From Echinicola marina (GTDB lineage: Bacteria > Bacteroidota > Bacteroidia > Cytophagales > Cyclobacteriaceae), in assembly GCF_020463795.1 (NCBI RefSeq), contig NZ_CP080025.1:1429001-1493000 (forward strand): 64,000 nt of DNA, written 5' to 3'. Of this stretch, positions 7,755 to 14,134 are shown one piece after another; position 1 is the first letter of the stretch; the number at the start of each line of letters is the position of its first letter. The translations under genes were made by a program, and so were the position numbers. Below the pieces are notes generated by a model. That model was not told the DNA's origin and did no database searches. It saw only the letters and a program-made list of their open reading frames with translations.

Positions 7755-10160
7755 ATGAAAAGAAGCATTAAAAAAGTAGCTATTTTAGGTTCCGGAGTAA
7801 TGGGATCCAGGATTGCCTGTCACTTTGCCAATATTGGTGTGAAGGTATTACTGCTGGATATTTTGCCCAAAGAACCCGATGAAGCCGAGGTCAAAAAAGG
7901 GCTTACGTTAGAAGACCAATCTGTTCGCAACAGACTGGTCAATGAGGCTTTGCAAAAAAGTCTGAAATCCAAGCCTTCTCCCATCTATGATCAATCCTTT
8001 GTCTCAAGGATTCAAACTGGAAACTTTGAGGATGACCTTCCTAAAATCAAGGATTATGATTGGGTGATAGAAGTGGTGGTAGAGCGATTGGATATCAAGC
8101 AATCACTCTATGAAAAAGTGGAGCTTCATCGTAAACCGGGAACATTGATCACTTCCAATACTTCGGGCATTCCCATGCAGATGCTCTGCCAGGGAAGAAG
8201 TGAGGATTTCCAAACCAATTTCTGTGGAACACACTTCTTCAATCCACCTAGGTATTTGCGCTTATTGGAAATCATTCCAGGCCCCAAAACCAATCCTGAA
8301 ATCATTGATTTTTTAATGGGCTATGGAGACAGGTTTCTTGGCAAAGAAACGGTTTTATGTAAGGATACTCCTGCATTTATTGCCAATAGAATAGGTGTAT
8401 ATGCCATTATGTCTAGTATGCATACCATTGAAAAAATGGGATTAGGTGTATCCGAGGTGGATAAGCTTACTGGGACAGTAATTGGTAGAGCAAAATCAGC
8501 GACATTCCGAACCATGGATGTGGTGGGCCTTGATACCATGGTGAATGTGGCGAATAATCTTCATAAAGCCCTGCAGCATGACGAATCCAAGGACCAGTTT
8601 AAGTTGCCCAAGGTGGTTCAGTTTTTATCAGAAAAAAAATGGCTGGGAGATAAAACCGGGCAAGGTTTCTTCCATATGATCCGACATAAGGATGGAAGGA
8701 AAGAATTAAAAGAATTGGATTTTGAGACCCTTGAATATAAACCCGTAGAAAAGCCCAAATTCAAAGCCTTTGAAGGATCCAAGGATATTCAGGATCTGAA
8801 AAAGCGAATTAAGTACCTGTTGAACTTTGATGATAGGGCTGGTGAATTTTATAGAGCTACTTTCTTTGACCTATTCAGGTATTGCTCTTTCAGGATTCCT
8901 GAAATTGCTGATGAATTATATCGTATAGACCAAGCAGTGTGTGCAGGTTTTGGTTGGGAATATGGCCCGTTCGAAAACTGGGATATTGTCGGAGTACAGG
9001 AGACTGTCAAAAAAATGGAAGCCGCAGATCAGCAACCAGCAGACTGGGTTTATGAGATGATCGAGGCTGGCCATGGCAGCTTTTACAAAGTAGAGAATGG
9101 GACAAGACAATACTATGATATCCCATCAAAGTCATACAAAGATATTCCAGGACAGCAGGAATTTATCTTGCTAGACACCTTGAAGGCTGGAAATAAAAAA
9201 GTATGGGAAAATTCAGGTTCTACCATTTATGATATGGGGGATGGAGTACTTGGCCTAGAATTCCATACAAAAATGAATTCCCTGGGAGCTGAGGTAGTTG
9301 AAGGAATCAACACGGCCATTTCGATGGCAGAAAAAGAATATAAGGGATTGGTCATCGGAAATGAAGGAGCCAATTTCTCGGCAGGAGCCAATTTGGCCAT
9401 GATCTTTATGTACGCTGGAGACCAGGACTTTGATGAAATCAACCTCATGATCGCCCAATTCCAAAAGACCATGATGCGAGTACGCTACAGTTCAATCCCT
9501 GTAGTGGTTGCTCCACATAATATGGCTTTGGGGGGTGGCTGTGAAATGTCCCTTCATGCGGACGCAGTGCAGGCACATGCTGAATTGTACATGGGCTTGG
9601 TGGAATTTGGAGTAGGTGTGATTCCTGGCGGTGGTGGCACCAAGGAGATGACCTTGCGATTCTCCAACAGCATCCATAATGGAGATGTTGAGCTGAACAG
9701 ATTGCAGGAAGTCTTTATGAATATCGCGACAGCCAAAGTTTCTACTTCAGCGGAGGAAGCAAGAGGACTCGGGTATTTGCAAGACAAAGATGGTATTACG
9801 CTGAATAGAAAAAGACAATTGGCTGAAGCTAAGGCTAAGGTGACAGAGCTCTACGATGAAGGATATACCCAACCCTTGCAGCAAAGCAATATCAAGGTAT
9901 TGGGTAAAACTTCACTGGCCTATTTCGAAGCAGGAATTACGGGAATGCTCTACGGATCCTATATCTCTGACCATGATGCCAAGATTGCAAGAAAGCTAGC
10001 TTGGGTAATGAGTGGTGGAGACCTATCACAAGAAACAGAAGTTAGTGAACAGTATTTATTGGACTTGGAAAGAGAGGCCTTCCTCAGCCTTACCGGGGAG
10101 CAAAAGACATTGGAAAGAATCCATAGCATTTTGTTTAAAGGTAAACCACTTAGGAATTAG
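7755..10160 (+). CDS. fadN: 3-hydroxyacyl-CoA dehydrogenase / enoyl-CoA hydratase, FadN type
   Basis: This 801-residue bifunctional enzyme catalyses the hydration and NAD-dependent oxidation steps of fatty-acid beta-oxidation. The dehydrogenase comes first: a Rossmann motif LGSGVMGSRIACHFANIG near residue 10, then SSNTSGI-type and GTHFFNPPRYLRLLEIIP blocks. The crotonase domain is C-terminal (about residues 500-720), with NFSAGANLAM and a glycine-rich GLVEFGVGVIPGGGGTKEM segment. This order matches Bacillus FadN rather than E. coli FadB, which has the hydratase first. Even the C-terminal GKPLRN ending resembles FadN. It is followed by a heptad array and a four-helix-bundle gene before fadA. 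Confidence 0.93.
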   Translation: MKRSIKKVAILGSGVMGSRIACHFANIGVKVLLLDILPKEPDEAEVKKGLTLEDQSVRNRLVNEALQKSLKSKPSPIYDQSFVSRIQTGNFEDDLPKIKDYDWVIEVVVERLDIKQSLYEKVELHRKPGTLITSNTSGIPMQMLCQGRSEDFQTNFCGTHFFNPPRYLRLLEIIPGPKTNPEIIDFLMGYGDRFLGKETVLCKDTPAFIANRIGVYAIMSSMHTIEKMGLGVSEVDKLTGTVIGRAKSATFRTMDVVGLDTMVNVANNLHKALQHDESKDQFKLPKVVQFLSEKKWLGDKTGQGFFHMIRHKDGRKELKELDFETLEYKPVEKPKFKAFEGSKDIQDLKKRIKYLLNFDDRAGEFYRATFFDLFRYCSFRIPEIADELYRIDQAVCAGFGWEYGPFENWDIVGVQETVKKMEAADQQPADWVYEMIEAGHGSFYKVENGTRQYYDIPSKSYKDIPGQQEFILLDTLKAGNKKVWENSGSTIYDMGDGVLGLEFHTKMNSLGAEVVEGINTAISMAEKEYKGLVIGNEGANFSAGANLAMIFMYAGDQDFDEINLMIAQFQKTMMRVRYSSIPVVVAPHNMALGGGCEMSLHADAVQAHAELYMGLVEFGVGVIPGGGGTKEMTLRFSNSIHNGDVELNRLQEVFMNIATAKVSTSAEEARGLGYLQDKDGITLNRKRQLAEAKAKVTELYDEGYTQPLQQSNIKVLGKTSLAYFEAGITGMLYGSYISDHDAKIARKLAWVMSGGDLSQETEVSEQYLLDLEREAFLSLTGEQKTLERIHSILFKGKPLRN

Positions 10161-10170
10161 CAAGCAGTAT

Positions 10171-10226
10171 CAAGTCGCTAGTATCATGAATAGCTAGAAT
10201 AAAGAGCCAAGAAGAAAGAAGAATGA
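10171..10226. repeat. Left heptad-period array flanking four-helix-bundle gene 1
   Basis: Four-base cores recur every 7 nt after the fadN stop: TAGA at 10195, AAGA at 10202, 10209 and 10216, and ATGA at 10223. An earlier triplet lies out of register with these: CAAG 10171, CTAG 10178, CATG 10185. The core of the array is complementary to the TCTT array on the other side of the gene. Confidence 0.7.
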
Positions 10227-10260: not shown

Positions 10261-10620
10261 ATGCACAATTTTAGAAATCTCATTGCTTGGCAAAAGTCGG
10301 TGGATTTGGCTGTAAAAGTTTACTTCACCACGAAGGAATTTCCTAACGAGGAAAAGTATGGAATAGTGTCTCAAATGAGAAGGGCCAGTGTTTCGGTGCC
10401 CTCTAATATTGCAGAGGGTAGTGCCAAATCATCCAAGAAAGTCTTTTGCAATTCCTTGGAGACAAGTTTAGGGGAGAGTTATGAGCTTGAAACGCAACTA
10501 GAAATAAGTAAAAGAGTTGGATTAATATCAGAGAAAGATGCTGAGTTACTTGAAAATGATCTGGTAGAAATTCAGAGAATGATCAATGGGCTCAAGTCGA
10601 AGATAGCATCCCAATCTTGA
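10261..10620 (+). CDS. Four-helix-bundle protein 1 (23S rRNA-intervening-sequence / S23 family)
   Basis: This 119-residue protein belongs to the S23 / four-helix-bundle family first described from intervening sequences in 23S rRNA genes; diversity-generating-retroelement accessory proteins have a similar fold. Diagnostic features are the N-terminal F(R/K)NLxxWQKSxxLxxxVY block, FPxEEKYG, SQMRRASVSVPSNIAEGSA and the YELETQLEIS helix. Molecular function is unknown; a nucleic-acid-binding pentamer is the usual model for the fold. It sits between fadN and fadA, bracketed by inverted 7-nt arrays. Its last codons lie inside the right array. It is about one third identical by eye to the second copy downstream. 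Confidence 0.9.
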   Translation: MHNFRNLIAWQKSVDLAVKVYFTTKEFPNEEKYGIVSQMRRASVSVPSNIAEGSAKSSKKVFCNSLETSLGESYELETQLEISKRVGLISEKDAELLENDLVEIQRMINGLKSKIASQS

Positions 10621-10649
10621 TTCTTTCATCTTGATTCTTTGTTCTTTAA
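10615..10649. repeat. Right heptad-period array of four-helix-bundle gene 1
   Basis: TCTT occurs at 10615, 10622, 10629, 10636 and 10643, five units exactly 7 nt apart. The first unit overlaps the end of the four-helix-bundle frame including its stop. On the opposite strand this reads NNNAAGA, matching the left array at 10195-10226, so the gene lies between inverted arrays. In one register about 17 of 21 positions are complementary. Confidence 0.75.
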
Positions 10650-10678: not shown

Positions 10679-11854
10679 ATGGAAGCTTATATAGTAAACG
10701 GATATAGAACAGCAGTGGGAAAGGCCAAGAAAGGTGGTTTCCGCTTTTATAGGCCGGATGATCTGGCCACGGATGTGATCAAACATTTATTGGCCCAGAC
10801 ACCGGGACTGGAACCAAGTAGGGTAGAGGACCTGATCGTAGGAAATGCAGTACCTGAAGCAGAACAGGGCATGCAAATGGGAAGGATGATTTCCCTGATG
10901 GCTTTGGGAAAGGTGGTGCCTGGTTTCATCATCAACCGCTATTGTGGATCAGGCCTGGAGGCGATTGCCCTGGCTACTGCCAAAATCAAATCTGGAATGG
11001 CAGATTGCATCATTGCAGGTGGAACAGAGTCCATGTCCATGGTGCCTATGATGGGCTATAAAACTTCCCTTAACTGGAAAATTGCCCAGGAACAGCCGGA
11101 TTATTATCTCAGTATGGGCTTAACAGCAGAAGAGCTGGCCAAAGACTATGATATCTCTCGGGAAGATTCAGATCAATTTGCAGTAAGCTCACATGAAAGG
11201 GCCATTAGTGCGATTAAGGAGGGGAGATTTAAAGATGAAATTGTCCCTATACAAGTGGAAGAAACCTATGTCGATGAATCCGGCAAAAGGAAAAAAAGAA
11301 CCTATACGGTAGATACTGATGAAGGGCCAAGGCCTGGAACCAATATGGATGTATTGTCCAAACTGAAACCTGCTTTTAAACAGGGAGGGCAGGTGACAGC
11401 CGGAAACTCCTCGCAAACATCTGATGGGGCATCCTTTGCCTTGGTGATGTCAGAAAGGATGGTTAAAGAATTGAATTTGGAACCTGTGGCCAGATTGGCA
11501 AGCTATTCAGTAGCAGGGGTGGACCCCAGAATCATGGGCATTGGACCGAAGGAGGCAGTACCAAAAGCGCTTAAGCAGGCAGGGCTTAGCTTGAATGATA
11601 TCAGTTTGGTGGAGCTAAACGAAGCCTTTGCAGCACAGGCTTTGGCAGTAATCCGCTCTCTGGATATGGATCCCGAGATGGTTAATGTAAATGGAGGAGC
11701 TGTTGCGCTGGGACACCCTCTAGGATGTACAGGAGCCAAGTTAACCGTCCAGATGATCAATGAACTTCGCAGAAGAAAACAAAAATACGGCATGGTCACT
11801 GCCTGCGTAGGAGGCGGCCAAGGCGTAGCAGGAGTGGTTGAATTGTTGAAATAG
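10679..11854 (+). CDS. fadA: Acetyl-CoA C-acyltransferase (3-ketoacyl-CoA thiolase), FadA type
   Basis: This thiolase cleaves 3-ketoacyl-CoA to acetyl-CoA and a shortened acyl-CoA. From the ATG at 10679 it is 391 residues, the usual thiolase length; an upstream alternative start would add an unconserved extension and overlap the heptad array. The nucleophilic cysteine lies in NRYCGSGLEAIALA, and the C-terminal histidine and cysteine in GHPLGCTGAK and CVGGGQGVAG. AGNSSQTSDGA and GGTESMSMVPMMG are also family blocks. It lies third in the marR-fadN-fadA-fadE order, with four-helix-bundle genes on both sides. The stop codon is part of the left heptad array of cassette 2. Confidence 0.95.
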   Translation: MEAYIVNGYRTAVGKAKKGGFRFYRPDDLATDVIKHLLAQTPGLEPSRVEDLIVGNAVPEAEQGMQMGRMISLMALGKVVPGFIINRYCGSGLEAIALATAKIKSGMADCIIAGGTESMSMVPMMGYKTSLNWKIAQEQPDYYLSMGLTAEELAKDYDISREDSDQFAVSSHERAISAIKEGRFKDEIVPIQVEETYVDESGKRKKRTYTVDTDEGPRPGTNMDVLSKLKPAFKQGGQVTAGNSSQTSDGASFALVMSERMVKELNLEPVARLASYSVAGVDPRIMGIGPKEAVPKALKQAGLSLNDISLVELNEAFAAQALAVIRSLDMDPEMVNVNGGAVALGHPLGCTGAKLTVQMINELRRRKQKYGMVTACVGGGQGVAGVVELLK

Positions 11855-11887
11855 ACACTAGACTTGAGACAATAGATTTGAGATTAA
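11852..11887. repeat. Left heptad-period array flanking four-helix-bundle gene 2
   Basis: AGA occurs at 11853, 11860, 11867, 11874 and 11881, five units exactly 7 nt apart. The first bases are the fadA stop codon. The outermost 14 bases, TAGACACTAGACTT (11852-11865), are a perfect reverse complement of 12290-12303 on the far side of the gene. Confidence 0.85.
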
Positions 11888-11932
11888 ATTTTCAAAGTTG
11901 ATACATTATTTTTTAACAAAAACAATTGTGTT

Positions 11933-12286
11933 ATGCATAACTATAAAGAGTTTAAAGTATGGCAAAGGTCAATTAAATTGACAGTAGAGATTTATAGGGT
12001 TTCTAGATTTTTTCCTTCCGAAGAAAAGTTTGGTTTAACATCTCAAATTAGAAGATGTGCTATTTCAGTCCCTTCCAATATATCAGAGGGGGCTGGTAGA
12101 AAAAGTGATAGGGAGTTTGCTCAATTTTTAGCTGTTTCGCACGGATCTATTTGTGAGTTAGAAACGCAACTAATTGTAGCAAAGGAACTCGAATTTATTG
12201 AAAAAAATGATTTTGATACACTTTCAGAAGAAATCAATGAACTGCAAAAGATGCTTTATACACTGATTCTCAAATTTGAAGGCTAG
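11933..12286 (+). CDS. Four-helix-bundle protein 2 (23S rRNA-intervening-sequence / S23 family)
   Basis: The second 117-residue member of the S23 / four-helix-bundle family shows the same ordered motifs as copy 1: FKVWQRSIKLTVEIY, FPSEEKFG, SQIRRCAISVPSNISEG and ELETQLIVA. It is only about one third identical to copy 1 by eye, so the pair is not a recent tandem duplication. It sits between fadA and fadE, 78 bases after the fadA stop, and is bracketed by heptad arrays ending in a 14-base perfect inverted repeat. Its base composition looks more AT-rich than the fad genes around it, which fits an independent origin. Molecular function is unknown. Confidence 0.9.
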   Translation: MHNYKEFKVWQRSIKLTVEIYRVSRFFPSEEKFGLTSQIRRCAISVPSNISEGAGRKSDREFAQFLAVSHGSICELETQLIVAKELEFIEKNDFDTLSEEINELQKMLYTLILKFEG

Positions 12287-12289
12287 TTT

Positions 12290-12327
12290 AAGTCTAGTGT
12301 CTAAAGTCTTATATCTAAAATCTAAAA
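12290..12327. repeat. Right heptad-period array of four-helix-bundle gene 2
   Basis: TCT occurs at 12293, 12300, 12307, 12314 and 12321, exactly 7 nt apart, ending five bases before the fadE start codon. AAGTCTAGTGTCTA (12290-12303) is the exact reverse complement of 11852-11865, so the gene lies between inverted arrays that could pair in RNA or define element ends. Confidence 0.85.
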
Positions 12328-12331
12328 TAAC

Positions 12332-14134
12332 ATGGAAACAACAAAGAAAAATACCATCAACGGCGGGGAGTTTTTGATTAGGGAAACGGAAGCCAAGGAC
12401 ATATTTATTCCTGCGGAATTTTCAGAGGAGCAGCGCATGATGGCGCAGGCTTGCCAGGATTTTATCGATACGGAGATCTTAAGCAAGGTAGAAGAGATCG
12501 ACAGTATGAAAGATCCTGAATTGGTACCGGGCATTCTTAAAAAGGCCGGTGAATTGGGCTTGCTGGGCATTTCTGTTCCGGAAGCTTACCAAGGATTGGG
12601 TATGAGTTTCAATACTTCCATGTTGATAGCAGATATAATGGGTGCTGCAGGATCATTTTCTACCACTTATGGGGCACATACGGGTATCGGTACTTTGCCG
12701 ATCCTATTTTATGGCACCGAGGAACAAAAGGAAAAATACCTGCCCAAGTTGGCCACTGGTGAATGGGCGGCTTGTTACTGTTTGACAGAGCCAGATGCTG
12801 GATCGGATGCCAATAGTGGAAAGACCAAAGCTACCCTCACCGAAGATGGCAAGCATTATTTGCTCAATGGGCAAAAGATGTGGATCTCCAATGGAGGATT
12901 TGCCGACCTGTTTATCGTCTTTGCCAAAATAGAGGATGATAAGAATCTTACAGCTTTTATCATTGAAAAAGATTTTGGTGGAATTACCATGAACGAGGAG
13001 GAGAAAAAGATGGGAATCAAGGGGTCTTCTACCCGTCAAGTATTTTTCAATGATTGCAAGGTGCCTGTTGAAAATATGCTTTCCGAGCGACAAAACGGAT
13101 TTAAGATCGCTGTAAATATCCTGAATATAGGCAGGGTTAAATTGGGAGCAGGTGTTTTGGGTGGTTGCAGGCTAGTGCTAAAAAATGCCCTGACTTACTC
13201 TTCCGAAAGAAAGCAATTTGGCGTATCCATCAATACTTTTGGTGCCATAAAAGCAAAATTGGCGGAAATGGCAGCCAAGACCTATGTTAGCGAATCCCTT
13301 TCATATCGCTTGGGACAGAATATTGAAGACCGTATTGATGCCTTGATTGCTGAGGGAATGGATGTCAATAAAGCCAAATTGAAAGGAGTCGAGCAGTTTG
13401 CTATGGAATGCGCCATTTCCAAAATTCATGGTTCAGAAGTTTTGGATTATGTGGTGGACCAAGGTGTGCAGATTTATGGAGGGATGGGGTATTCAGCGGA
13501 TGCACCTATGGAACGTGCTTATAGGGATGCTAGGATATCCAGAATATATGAAGGCACCAATGAAATCAACAGGATGTTGATGGTGGGCATGCTTTTGAAG
13601 CGGGCCATGAAGGGAGAAATCAATCTTTTTGATCCAGCCAAGGCTGTTTCTGAGGAATTGACTTCTGTGCCATCATTTGCAACTATAGATACTTCGGAGT
13701 TATTTGCAGTTGAGAAGGAAGTCCTGAAAAAATTGAAGAAAGTATTTTTGATGATAGGGGGCAAGGCTGCAATGGTTTTGCAGGATAAGATCGAAGAAGA
13801 GCAGGAGATCATGATGAACCTAGCAGATATCATGATTGAAATATATGCTGTAGAATCTGCTTTGCTGAGGACAGAGAAGAGAGTTGGCTTGAAAGGGGAA
13901 GAGGCATGCAAGCAGCAAATTGCTATGGTGCAAGTTTACTTAACCGAGGCAGTCAATAAGATACAATCAGCAGGCAAAGAAGCCATTGCAGCTTTTACTT
14001 CAGGAGATGAGCAAAAAGTGATGTTGATGGGGCTAAAACGCTTCACCAAAATGGAACCGTATAATACCAAGGAGCTAAGAAGGCAAATAGCCGATGATAT
14101 GATCTCAAAAGGAAAGTACGCTTATTTTGAGTAA
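12332..14134 (+). CDS. fadE: Acyl-CoA dehydrogenase, FadE type
   Basis: This FAD enzyme catalyses the first step of the beta-oxidation cycle, acyl-CoA to trans-2-enoyl-CoA. At 600 residues it matches the long Bacillus FadE type, with an extra C-terminal helical domain beyond the standard 380-residue core. Visible blocks are CYCLTEPDAGSDANSGKT (FAD/substrate region), GQKMWISNGGFADLF, GRVKLGAGVLGGCRLV, and the catalytic glutamate in RIYEGTNEINRML. It completes the marR-fadN-fadA-fadE set, equivalent to the contiguous fadNAE operon of Bacillus, and is followed by a short heptad remnant and a strong terminator. The partner electron carrier (ETF) is not in the window. Confidence 0.95.
   Translation: METTKKNTINGGEFLIRETEAKDIFIPAEFSEEQRMMAQACQDFIDTEILSKVEEIDSMKDPELVPGILKKAGELGLLGISVPEAYQGLGMSFNTSMLIADIMGAAGSFSTTYGAHTGIGTLPILFYGTEEQKEKYLPKLATGEWAACYCLTEPDAGSDANSGKTKATLTEDGKHYLLNGQKMWISNGGFADLFIVFAKIEDDKNLTAFIIEKDFGGITMNEEEKKMGIKGSSTRQVFFNDCKVPVENMLSERQNGFKIAVNILNIGRVKLGAGVLGGCRLVLKNALTYSSERKQFGVSINTFGAIKAKLAEMAAKTYVSESLSYRLGQNIEDRIDALIAEGMDVNKAKLKGVEQFAMECAISKIHGSEVLDYVVDQGVQIYGGMGYSADAPMERAYRDARISRIYEGTNEINRMLMVGMLLKRAMKGEINLFDPAKAVSEELTSVPSFATIDTSELFAVEKEVLKKLKKVFLMIGGKAAMVLQDKIEEEQEIMMNLADIMIEIYAVESALLRTEKRVGLKGEEACKQQIAMVQVYLTEAVNKIQSAGKEAIAAFTSGDEQKVMLMGLKRFTKMEPYNTKELRRQIADDMISKGKYAYFE

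Follow-up and report, generated by a model that had tools for sequence, protein, structure and literature searches.

IVP genes in operon spacers of Echinicola marina and other bacteria are often flanked by inverted arrays of 7- or 8-nt words

The stretch of DNA analysed here, referred to as the window, comprises 64,000 nucleotides of the Echinicola marina genome and contains an operon in the order fadB-[IVP1]-thiolase-[IVP2]-fadE. The whole set lies on the + strand, and the spacers are occupied by two genes of the four-helix-bundle IVP family, here called copies 1 and 2 (Table 1). Their family profile scores exceed the curated cut-offs (139 and 129.3 bits against 33.8; 136.1 and 121.3 against 24), and sequence matching identifies 2gsc (E=5.8e-33) and 2rld (E=7.9e-15), with five chains each, as crystal relatives of IVP. 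We know of no catalytic motif in this protein.

Table 1. Features of the fadB-thiolase-fadE operon and its two IVP cassettes, in positions of the window
Feature	Position	Strand	Remarks
FadB-like 3-hydroxyacyl-CoA dehydrogenase/crotonase, upstream operon gene	7755..10160	+	
Remnant of an outer array, words of a different family (AGTATCA/AGTCGCT)	10163..10186	+	24 nt shared exactly with sister genome G009; lies beyond the copy 1 array
Left array, copy 1 (AGAATAA-type)	10192..10226	+	lag-7 score 18/28
IVP gene, copy 1, 119 aa	10261..10620	+	PF05635 E=8.6e-38
Right array, copy 1 (TTCTTTG-type)	10612..10649	+	lag-7 score 19/28; overlaps gene end
Acetyl-CoA C-acyltransferase (thiolase), between both cassettes	10680..11854	+	ATG start chosen; mechanical ORF from TTG 10631
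Left heptad array, copy 2 (AGANNNN x5)	11852..11883	+	begins within thiolase stop codon
14-nt exact inverted match, left member	11852..11865	+	
IVP/four-helix-bundle gene, copy 2, 117 aa	11933..12286	+	PF05635 E=8e-41; TIGR02436 E=5e-40
Right array, copy 2 (TCT x5), reverse-complement words	12290..12323	+	
14-nt exact inverted match, right member	12290..12303	+	inner end of right array
FadE-like acyl-CoA dehydrogenase, downstream operon gene	12332..14134	+	

Each IVP gene is bordered on both sides by short tandem words. In copy 2, AGA recurs at positions 11853, 11860, 11867, 11874 and 11881 and TCT at 12293, 12300, 12307, 12314 and 12321, exactly as the first-pass annotation of this DNA had described. 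Neither chain of five arose in mononucleotide shuffles (0/20,000 for AGA and likewise for TCT), a chain of five of any triplet arose in 1/2,000 shuffles of the left stretch, and an exact inverted match of at least 14 nt in 0/2,000, so that a chance origin of the copy 2 arrays is ruled out. The same annotation spoke of a 14-base perfect terminal inverted repeat. The match is indeed exact, but it is not strictly terminal, because the left array contributes its outer end and the right array its inner end; over a wider stretch, the best full duplex of copy 2 joins 11851-11902 with 12270-12318 at -33.2 kcal/mol, in a register unlike that of the 14-nt match. The thiolase stop codon in which the left array starts is TAG (11852-11854), and the right array stops 8 nt before the fadE start.

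Copy 1 has the same flank design with other words (AGAATAA-type), as had been claimed. The proteins of the two copies, said to share about a third of their residues, in fact agree in 46 of 111, or 41%; together with the different words found at other loci, this identity argues against recent duplication as the source of the flanks, in agreement with the first-pass annotation. Based on computed RNA pairing, the two arrays of copy 1 reach -27.4 kcal/mol, compared with -13.2 (sd 3.1) for shuffles, and those of copy 2 reach -25.5 compared with -10.9 (sd 3.1), with 0/200 shuffles as good in either case; the ends of both copies are thus complementary and, by computation, able to pair as a stem. To score arrays, sequence was matched against itself at a given lag, and the best 28 comparisons in any 220 nt were taken. 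In the 64 kb, lag 7 scores 18/28 or more at five places, three of which adjoin the two IVP genes, and the left array of copy 2 scores 17.

Such arrays accompany IVP genes at most of the other loci examined. The first set consisted of the best 80 of 589 confirmed stretches, taken from named genomes (by title mostly Bacteroidota, plus other phyla, with many MAGs), 76 of which had a usable ORF. In this set a lag-7 score of at least 18/28 was found in 40/73 upstream and 43/75 downstream flanks, compared with 4.4% of 1161 control windows taken from the same loci more than 800 nt from the IVP gene. At lags 5, 6 and 10-13 the flanks gave 0-4%, at lags 8, 9 and 15 they gave 1-11%, and lag 14 was high as a harmonic of 7. 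A replicate with 29 of 30 Bacteroidota loci gave lag 7 in 13/29 and 7/29 flanks (controls 10/199) and lag 8 in 6/29 and 7/29 (controls 1/199). Cyanobacterial plasmids, represented by 12 loci fetched from 26 plasmid records with a match, gave lag 7 in 10/12 and 8/12 (controls 7/85), with words including AAAAGCT, AACAGGG, GTAGGGA and GACAGGT. Additionally, eight genomes reached through first-set loci (titles mostly other phyla; 26 of 30 loci usable) had arrays in 21/26 and 14/26 flanks, compared with 13/154 controls. One MAG, titled Limnohabitans (L120 / G253), groups with the window's class, and its title or binning looks wrong.

Under strict labels, 78 of 124 loci have period 7, 18 have period 8 and 28 are unlabelled, which supports the proposal that the arrays are a property of the element. 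The expectation of locus-specific words at a constant spacing held at the loci examined, with words that differ between loci even within one genome; as a refinement, the spacing is not a single constant, being 8 in one protein clade and in scattered others, and rarely 9. Period-9 arrays adjoin the IVP genes at L110, L167 and L286. In the genome of the window, arrays were found at six of the seven IVP genes; at L005 and L007, one of these seven has period-8 flanks and one is without a clear array.

A first explanation of these counts is that heptamer arrays are generic intergenic repeats, spread by slippage or another agent, and that IVP genes merely tend to sit among them. We regard this as rather unlikely. 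As most arrays are intergenic, gaps were compared with gaps: among those of 60-600 nt, arrays occur in 38/67 next to IVP genes and in 21/89 others (Fisher p=2.9e-5), and among those of 60-120 nt in 23/45 and 6/27, respectively (p=0.025). These results indicate that arrays are generally frequent in these genomes, as generic repeats would be, and show an additional enrichment beside the IVP gene, which counts against that explanation. Arrays are also found without an IVP gene and are therefore not exclusive to it, and the numerous solo arrays again suit generic repeats. In the genome of the window the AGA pattern, which is without a useful chance control, has about 36 sites (a nearly complete list, and clustered), only two of them at IVP genes. 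In regions chosen by this pattern there are 71 arrays and no IVP ORF. Three of the arrays fall within ORFs of 150 aa or more, and only 4/71 have a same-word inverted partner within 800 nt, which weakens the view that solo arrays in this genome are same-word hairpins.

Some array-rich regions of the same genome have a structure of their own. L047:5855-7430 and L054:1776-2097, which lie 2.2 Mb apart, carry by eye near-identical terminal arrays at both ends, the pair at L047 enclosing a 355-aa ORF and that at L054 covering about 320 nt. Dense mosaics of heptad arrays, partly tandem duplications, fill L051 (3633000-3648500) and L052 (3674500-3680000), with the word families TTCGGCC, ATTAACC, AATCCCC and TCTCAAG.

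At the level of whole genomes, the link between IVP number and array density is no more than suggestive. The scan covered 80 kb per genome in 22 Bacteroidota genomes, and 200 kb of unselected stretches in the genome of the window. The five genomes without PF05635 had 0 strong arrays (20/28) in 400 kb, and 4 at the looser 18/28. Over the 23 genomes the correlation at 20/28 was 0.48 (Spearman, p=0.02, kinship ignored), compared with -0.02 at other lags, and in the 18 genomes with a GC of at most 0.5 it was 0.33 (p=0.18). The genome of the window had 1 strong array in its 200 kb. The weakness of this correlation favours generic repeats, as do two genomes with 13 and 15 IVPs and no strong array in the 80 kb sampled, and the heptads of Xanthomonas and Nostoc, which are described without a gene partner in excerpts from PMC4692102.

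Two further lines of evidence point away from generic repeats. The first is polarity. At 36 loci scoring at least 17/28 on both sides, the upstream words agree better with the downstream words when the latter are reverse-complemented (mean similarity 0.676) than when they are read directly (0.465), the value for other loci being 0.463; the inverted similarity was the higher in 32/36, and 0/10,000 permutations reached the mean. Among the four exceptions, L091 and L139 are clearly direct, and L130 and L151 are doubtful. Insertion of the gene into a single pre-existing tandem array would yield direct words and is rejected on this ground. The pairing of an array with its own partner was better than with each of 20 foreign partners in only 34/94 loci. 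The second line is descent. On the IVP tree the 7/8 period label requires 8 changes, compared with a minimum of 13 in 300 shuffles; after thinning to below 75% identity (83 rows: 69 and 14), 8 changes compare with at least 10. One IVP clade holds 9 of the 18 period-8 loci (L169, L170, L176, L182, L184, L190-L192 and L196; L154 is unlabelled). Among the 78 period-7 loci, word similarity climbs with protein identity (Mantel r=0.185, 0/5,000 permutations, pairs sharing neighbouring genes excluded). Period and words thus track IVP phylogeny. The word-protein correlation is a small one, and it would follow equally from binding specificity or from descent of entire cassettes from a common source.

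The coupling of period to protein could also suit a second explanation, which we judge improbable, in which IVP, an RNA-binding protein resident in the operon, wraps arrayed units and tunes expression of the downstream gene, with the arrays serving as operators. The principle would be that of TRAP, a ring-shaped oligomer on (G/U)AG repeats. The likeness is one of analogy, a ring oligomer meeting short RNA units at fixed spacing, and no homology is claimed. The position of IVP in the sense direction within operons accords with such a role: at the 116 of 124 loci with a near neighbour on each side, gene order is wholly co-directional in 106, with IVP antisense in 3 (cyanobacterial plasmids) and 7 other arrangements, and control genes from the same loci are co-directional in 54/69, opposite in 3 and otherwise arranged in 12. 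The strand pattern of IVP resembles that of other genes, so IVP behaves as an operon member; since the native genes of the same loci are also in sense, orientation alone is no proof of an RNA role. The five chains of 2gsc and 2rld and the basic character of the family (median pI 8.5; above 7 in 89 of 124 proteins) would likewise fit a regulator. The number of units per array has a weak mode at 5 (12/39 and 9/43, at loci selected on the other side), and the match to a pentamer is no stronger than this mode. Against regulation stand the very different hosts, among them fatty acid genes, cas, tra, ribonucleotide reductase and two more identified by eye, and the patchy presence of the gene within one genus.

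This patchiness was followed at the site of copy 2 in relatives of the window. The comparison took in 30 relatives that have a FadE locus, out of 56 matching genomes; the thiolase lies directly upstream of FadE in 23 of the 30, and an intact IVP ORF occupies the spacer in 11 of the 23. The thiolase-FadE spacer is still of IVP length in three members of the window's genus (G008, G003 and G002; L062, L064 and L068), and the ORF script detected no IVP ORF there. IVP-less heptad hairpins were seen by eye at the same site in other genera (G036, G030 and G031, and more weakly in G026 and G023). Both observations count against a regulator acting on its own operators. The spacer measures 230 nt without IVP in G005, 62 nt in G013 and 76 nt in G019, and in G040 it is an unrelated sequence of 984 nt. 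The array words at this site vary from AGA- and GAG-type through to GTTGAC-type.

The fadB-thiolase site holds an IVP gene in 13 of 15 genomes read (of 20 fetched). One IVP type, assigned by eye, and AGTATCA words are common to G009 and G003, and another type, also assigned by eye, with AGA/AAG words is carried by G000 and seven congeners. G000 and G001 retain an AGTATCA array outside their own array, with 24 and 21 nt identical to G009, and the flanking genes of G009 are near those of G000 (80-98% in 90-nt windows), not those of G003 (70-89%). These mosaic arrays point to exchange within arrays. Two further sites, whose names are our own reading of the sequence, are polymorphic within the genus: odhB-lpd is filled in G000, G009 and G003 and empty in G001, G007 and G008, and the peptidase-argH spacer is filled in G001 and G003 and empty in G000, G009, G007 and G008, the empty spacers being about 40 nt long and alignable by eye. 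Within a single genus, then, operon sites that are themselves fixed have acquired cassettes, lost them or swapped them for others.

Such presence/absence polymorphism, the inverted ends and 19 Y1-transposase matches in the genome might suggest a conventional DNA transposon or MITE that has terminal inverted repeats and depends on a transposase acting in trans, for example one of the IS200/RAYT type. We give this only a slim chance, as the end sequences vary between copies with the period alone conserved, orientation is not mixed (3/109 antisense), and no target-site duplication was seen by eye at the two polymorphic sites. Most strong Y1 matches, moreover, fall into groups with identical scores and so look like IS copies; three of identical score, on C1 at 3511464, 4547221 and 4719627, each have one TAG within the matched region. 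Reverse transcriptase, the other candidate partner, has four PF00078 matches in the genome, all outside the window and none beside the window cassettes; neither it nor the Y1 transposase is tied to the cassettes. A phage origin found no support either, one tblastn query of a phage collection giving no match.

That copy 2 is a true 23S rRNA intervening sequence (IVS) barely merits credence: the protein family is common to both and the end-pairing layout is like that of the Coxiella IVS (in the part of PMC4990558 used here), but the copies of the window sit between fatty-acid genes, copy 2 lying in the thiolase-FadE spacer and not in a 23S rRNA gene, which by location refutes an IVS proper, the window is without an Rfam match at the gathering threshold, and five 23S oligos matched no locus examined.

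The reading we prefer, to which we give a probability of about one half, is that copy 2 is one copy of a widespread semi-mobile IVS-like cassette, consisting of a PF05635 gene between inverted arrays of a short unit and lodged in the sense direction in an operon spacer. The association itself, the inverted polarity, the fixed period with locus-specific words, the tracking of IVP phylogeny by period and words, presence and absence at fixed sites and the fadB-thiolase mosaics are all shown by the data. For the mechanism, an IVP oligomer may recognise its own array at about one unit per subunit, as the five chains of the crystal relatives, the kinship of the family to Avd, its mostly basic proteins and the weak mode of five units suggest. 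In the transcript, both arrays could pair into a stem and so isolate the IVP reading frame, much as the terminal stem of the 23S rRNA intervening sequence does; with such a stem in the mRNA, the operon would be able to bear the insertion. New cassettes would come by exchange within arrays or by another route, and loss of the gene may leave behind hairpins and solo arrays. More tentatively, and as a possibility we would not yet call probable, the cassettes may form a new class of genetic element, with ends set by unit length and not by sequence. The IVP oligomer would then measure a 7-nt or 8-nt unit, surround its own gene with inverted arrays whose words drift, and be the partner protein long missing from the heptamer repeats that occur in cyanobacteria, Bacteroidota and other phyla.

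Several known systems resemble these cassettes in part. In the REP/RAYT system, inverted repeats are scattered over intergenic regions and have a protein putatively dedicated to them; the cassettes are like it in both respects, whereas their repeat words differ between loci. STRR are heptameric intergenic repeats of cyanobacteria, and the period-7 intergenic units present at copy 2 are as in this class. The 23S rRNA IVS shares with the cassettes an IVP-family (IVP/S23p) gene, complementary ends with the capacity for a long stem, and a patchy distribution; in Coxiella the stem is 28 bp long and RNase III cleavage is described (in the portion of PMC4990558 consulted). Unlike the IVS, the cassettes of the window lie in operon spacers, and their ends are arrays in which the unit measures 7 or 8 nt and the words change from locus to locus. 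Avd of the diversity-generating retroelements is homologous in fold to the IVP family, according to an excerpt of PMC10053308. The window proteins match the bAvd profile at 23.2 and 27.1 bits (cut-off 40) and the Avd profile at 25.1 and 30.6 bits (cut-off 80), all below the curated values, and, unlike Avd, the cassettes are without an adjacent reverse transcriptase.

Heptameric repeats have also been described in other bacteria. TAACTGA heptads are reported in PMC4679880, where, in a passage seen in part, MacGregor speculates that the mobile element might be a repeat-binding protein itself. For the GGGAATC/GGGGATT repeats of Xanthomonas, the excerpted text of PMC4692102 counts 186 GGGAATC arrays and 70 convergent pairs in one strain and 183 and 75 in another, chiefly between aligned ORFs and generally with no mobile-element association. 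In the P6b region of Nostoc trnL, a stem is built of seven-base motifs, and it is the origin of these motifs that the section of PMC4476775 cited here leaves unexplained. The period of 7 links all of these repeats, STRR included, to the cassette arrays; the Xanthomonas repeats also share the intergenic position between aligned ORFs and the convergent pairs, and those of Nostoc the building of a stem. In contrast to the cassettes, a link to an IVP gene is absent from the excerpts of PMC4679880 and PMC4692102. Four-helix-bundle genes are mentioned in PMC5524665 and TAACTGA in PMC4853749, and neither source, in its excerpted part, connects IVP with heptamers. Our search of the openly licensed literature found no paper linking IVP (PF05635) to heptamer repeats.

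The hosts of IVP cassettes extend to other kinds of operon. On cyanobacterial plasmids an IVP gene also lies antisense between ribonucleotide-reductase genes. Cyanobacterial cassettes are found inside cas clusters at L239, L240 and L246, as cas6-IVP-cas4 twice, in two genera, and as cas10-IVP-cmr3 with period 8. Their position may help to explain why an IVP domain appears in a figure legend on CRISPR-associated genes, in the portion of PMC10910872 available to us.

In summary, IVP genes, known from rRNA insertions, also occur between ordinary genes, where they are often flanked by inverted arrays of 7- or 8-nt words. Although heptamer repeats have been described repeatedly, in cyanobacteria, Xanthomonas, Beggiatoaceae and Bacteroidota, the literature excerpted here gives them no accepted origin, and the association found in this study makes the IVP family a candidate for their partner protein. 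If this is true, the range of IVS-type elements would widen from rRNA genes to operons, and the association of IVP with arrays opens the way to tests of binding, unit-length specificity and mobility.
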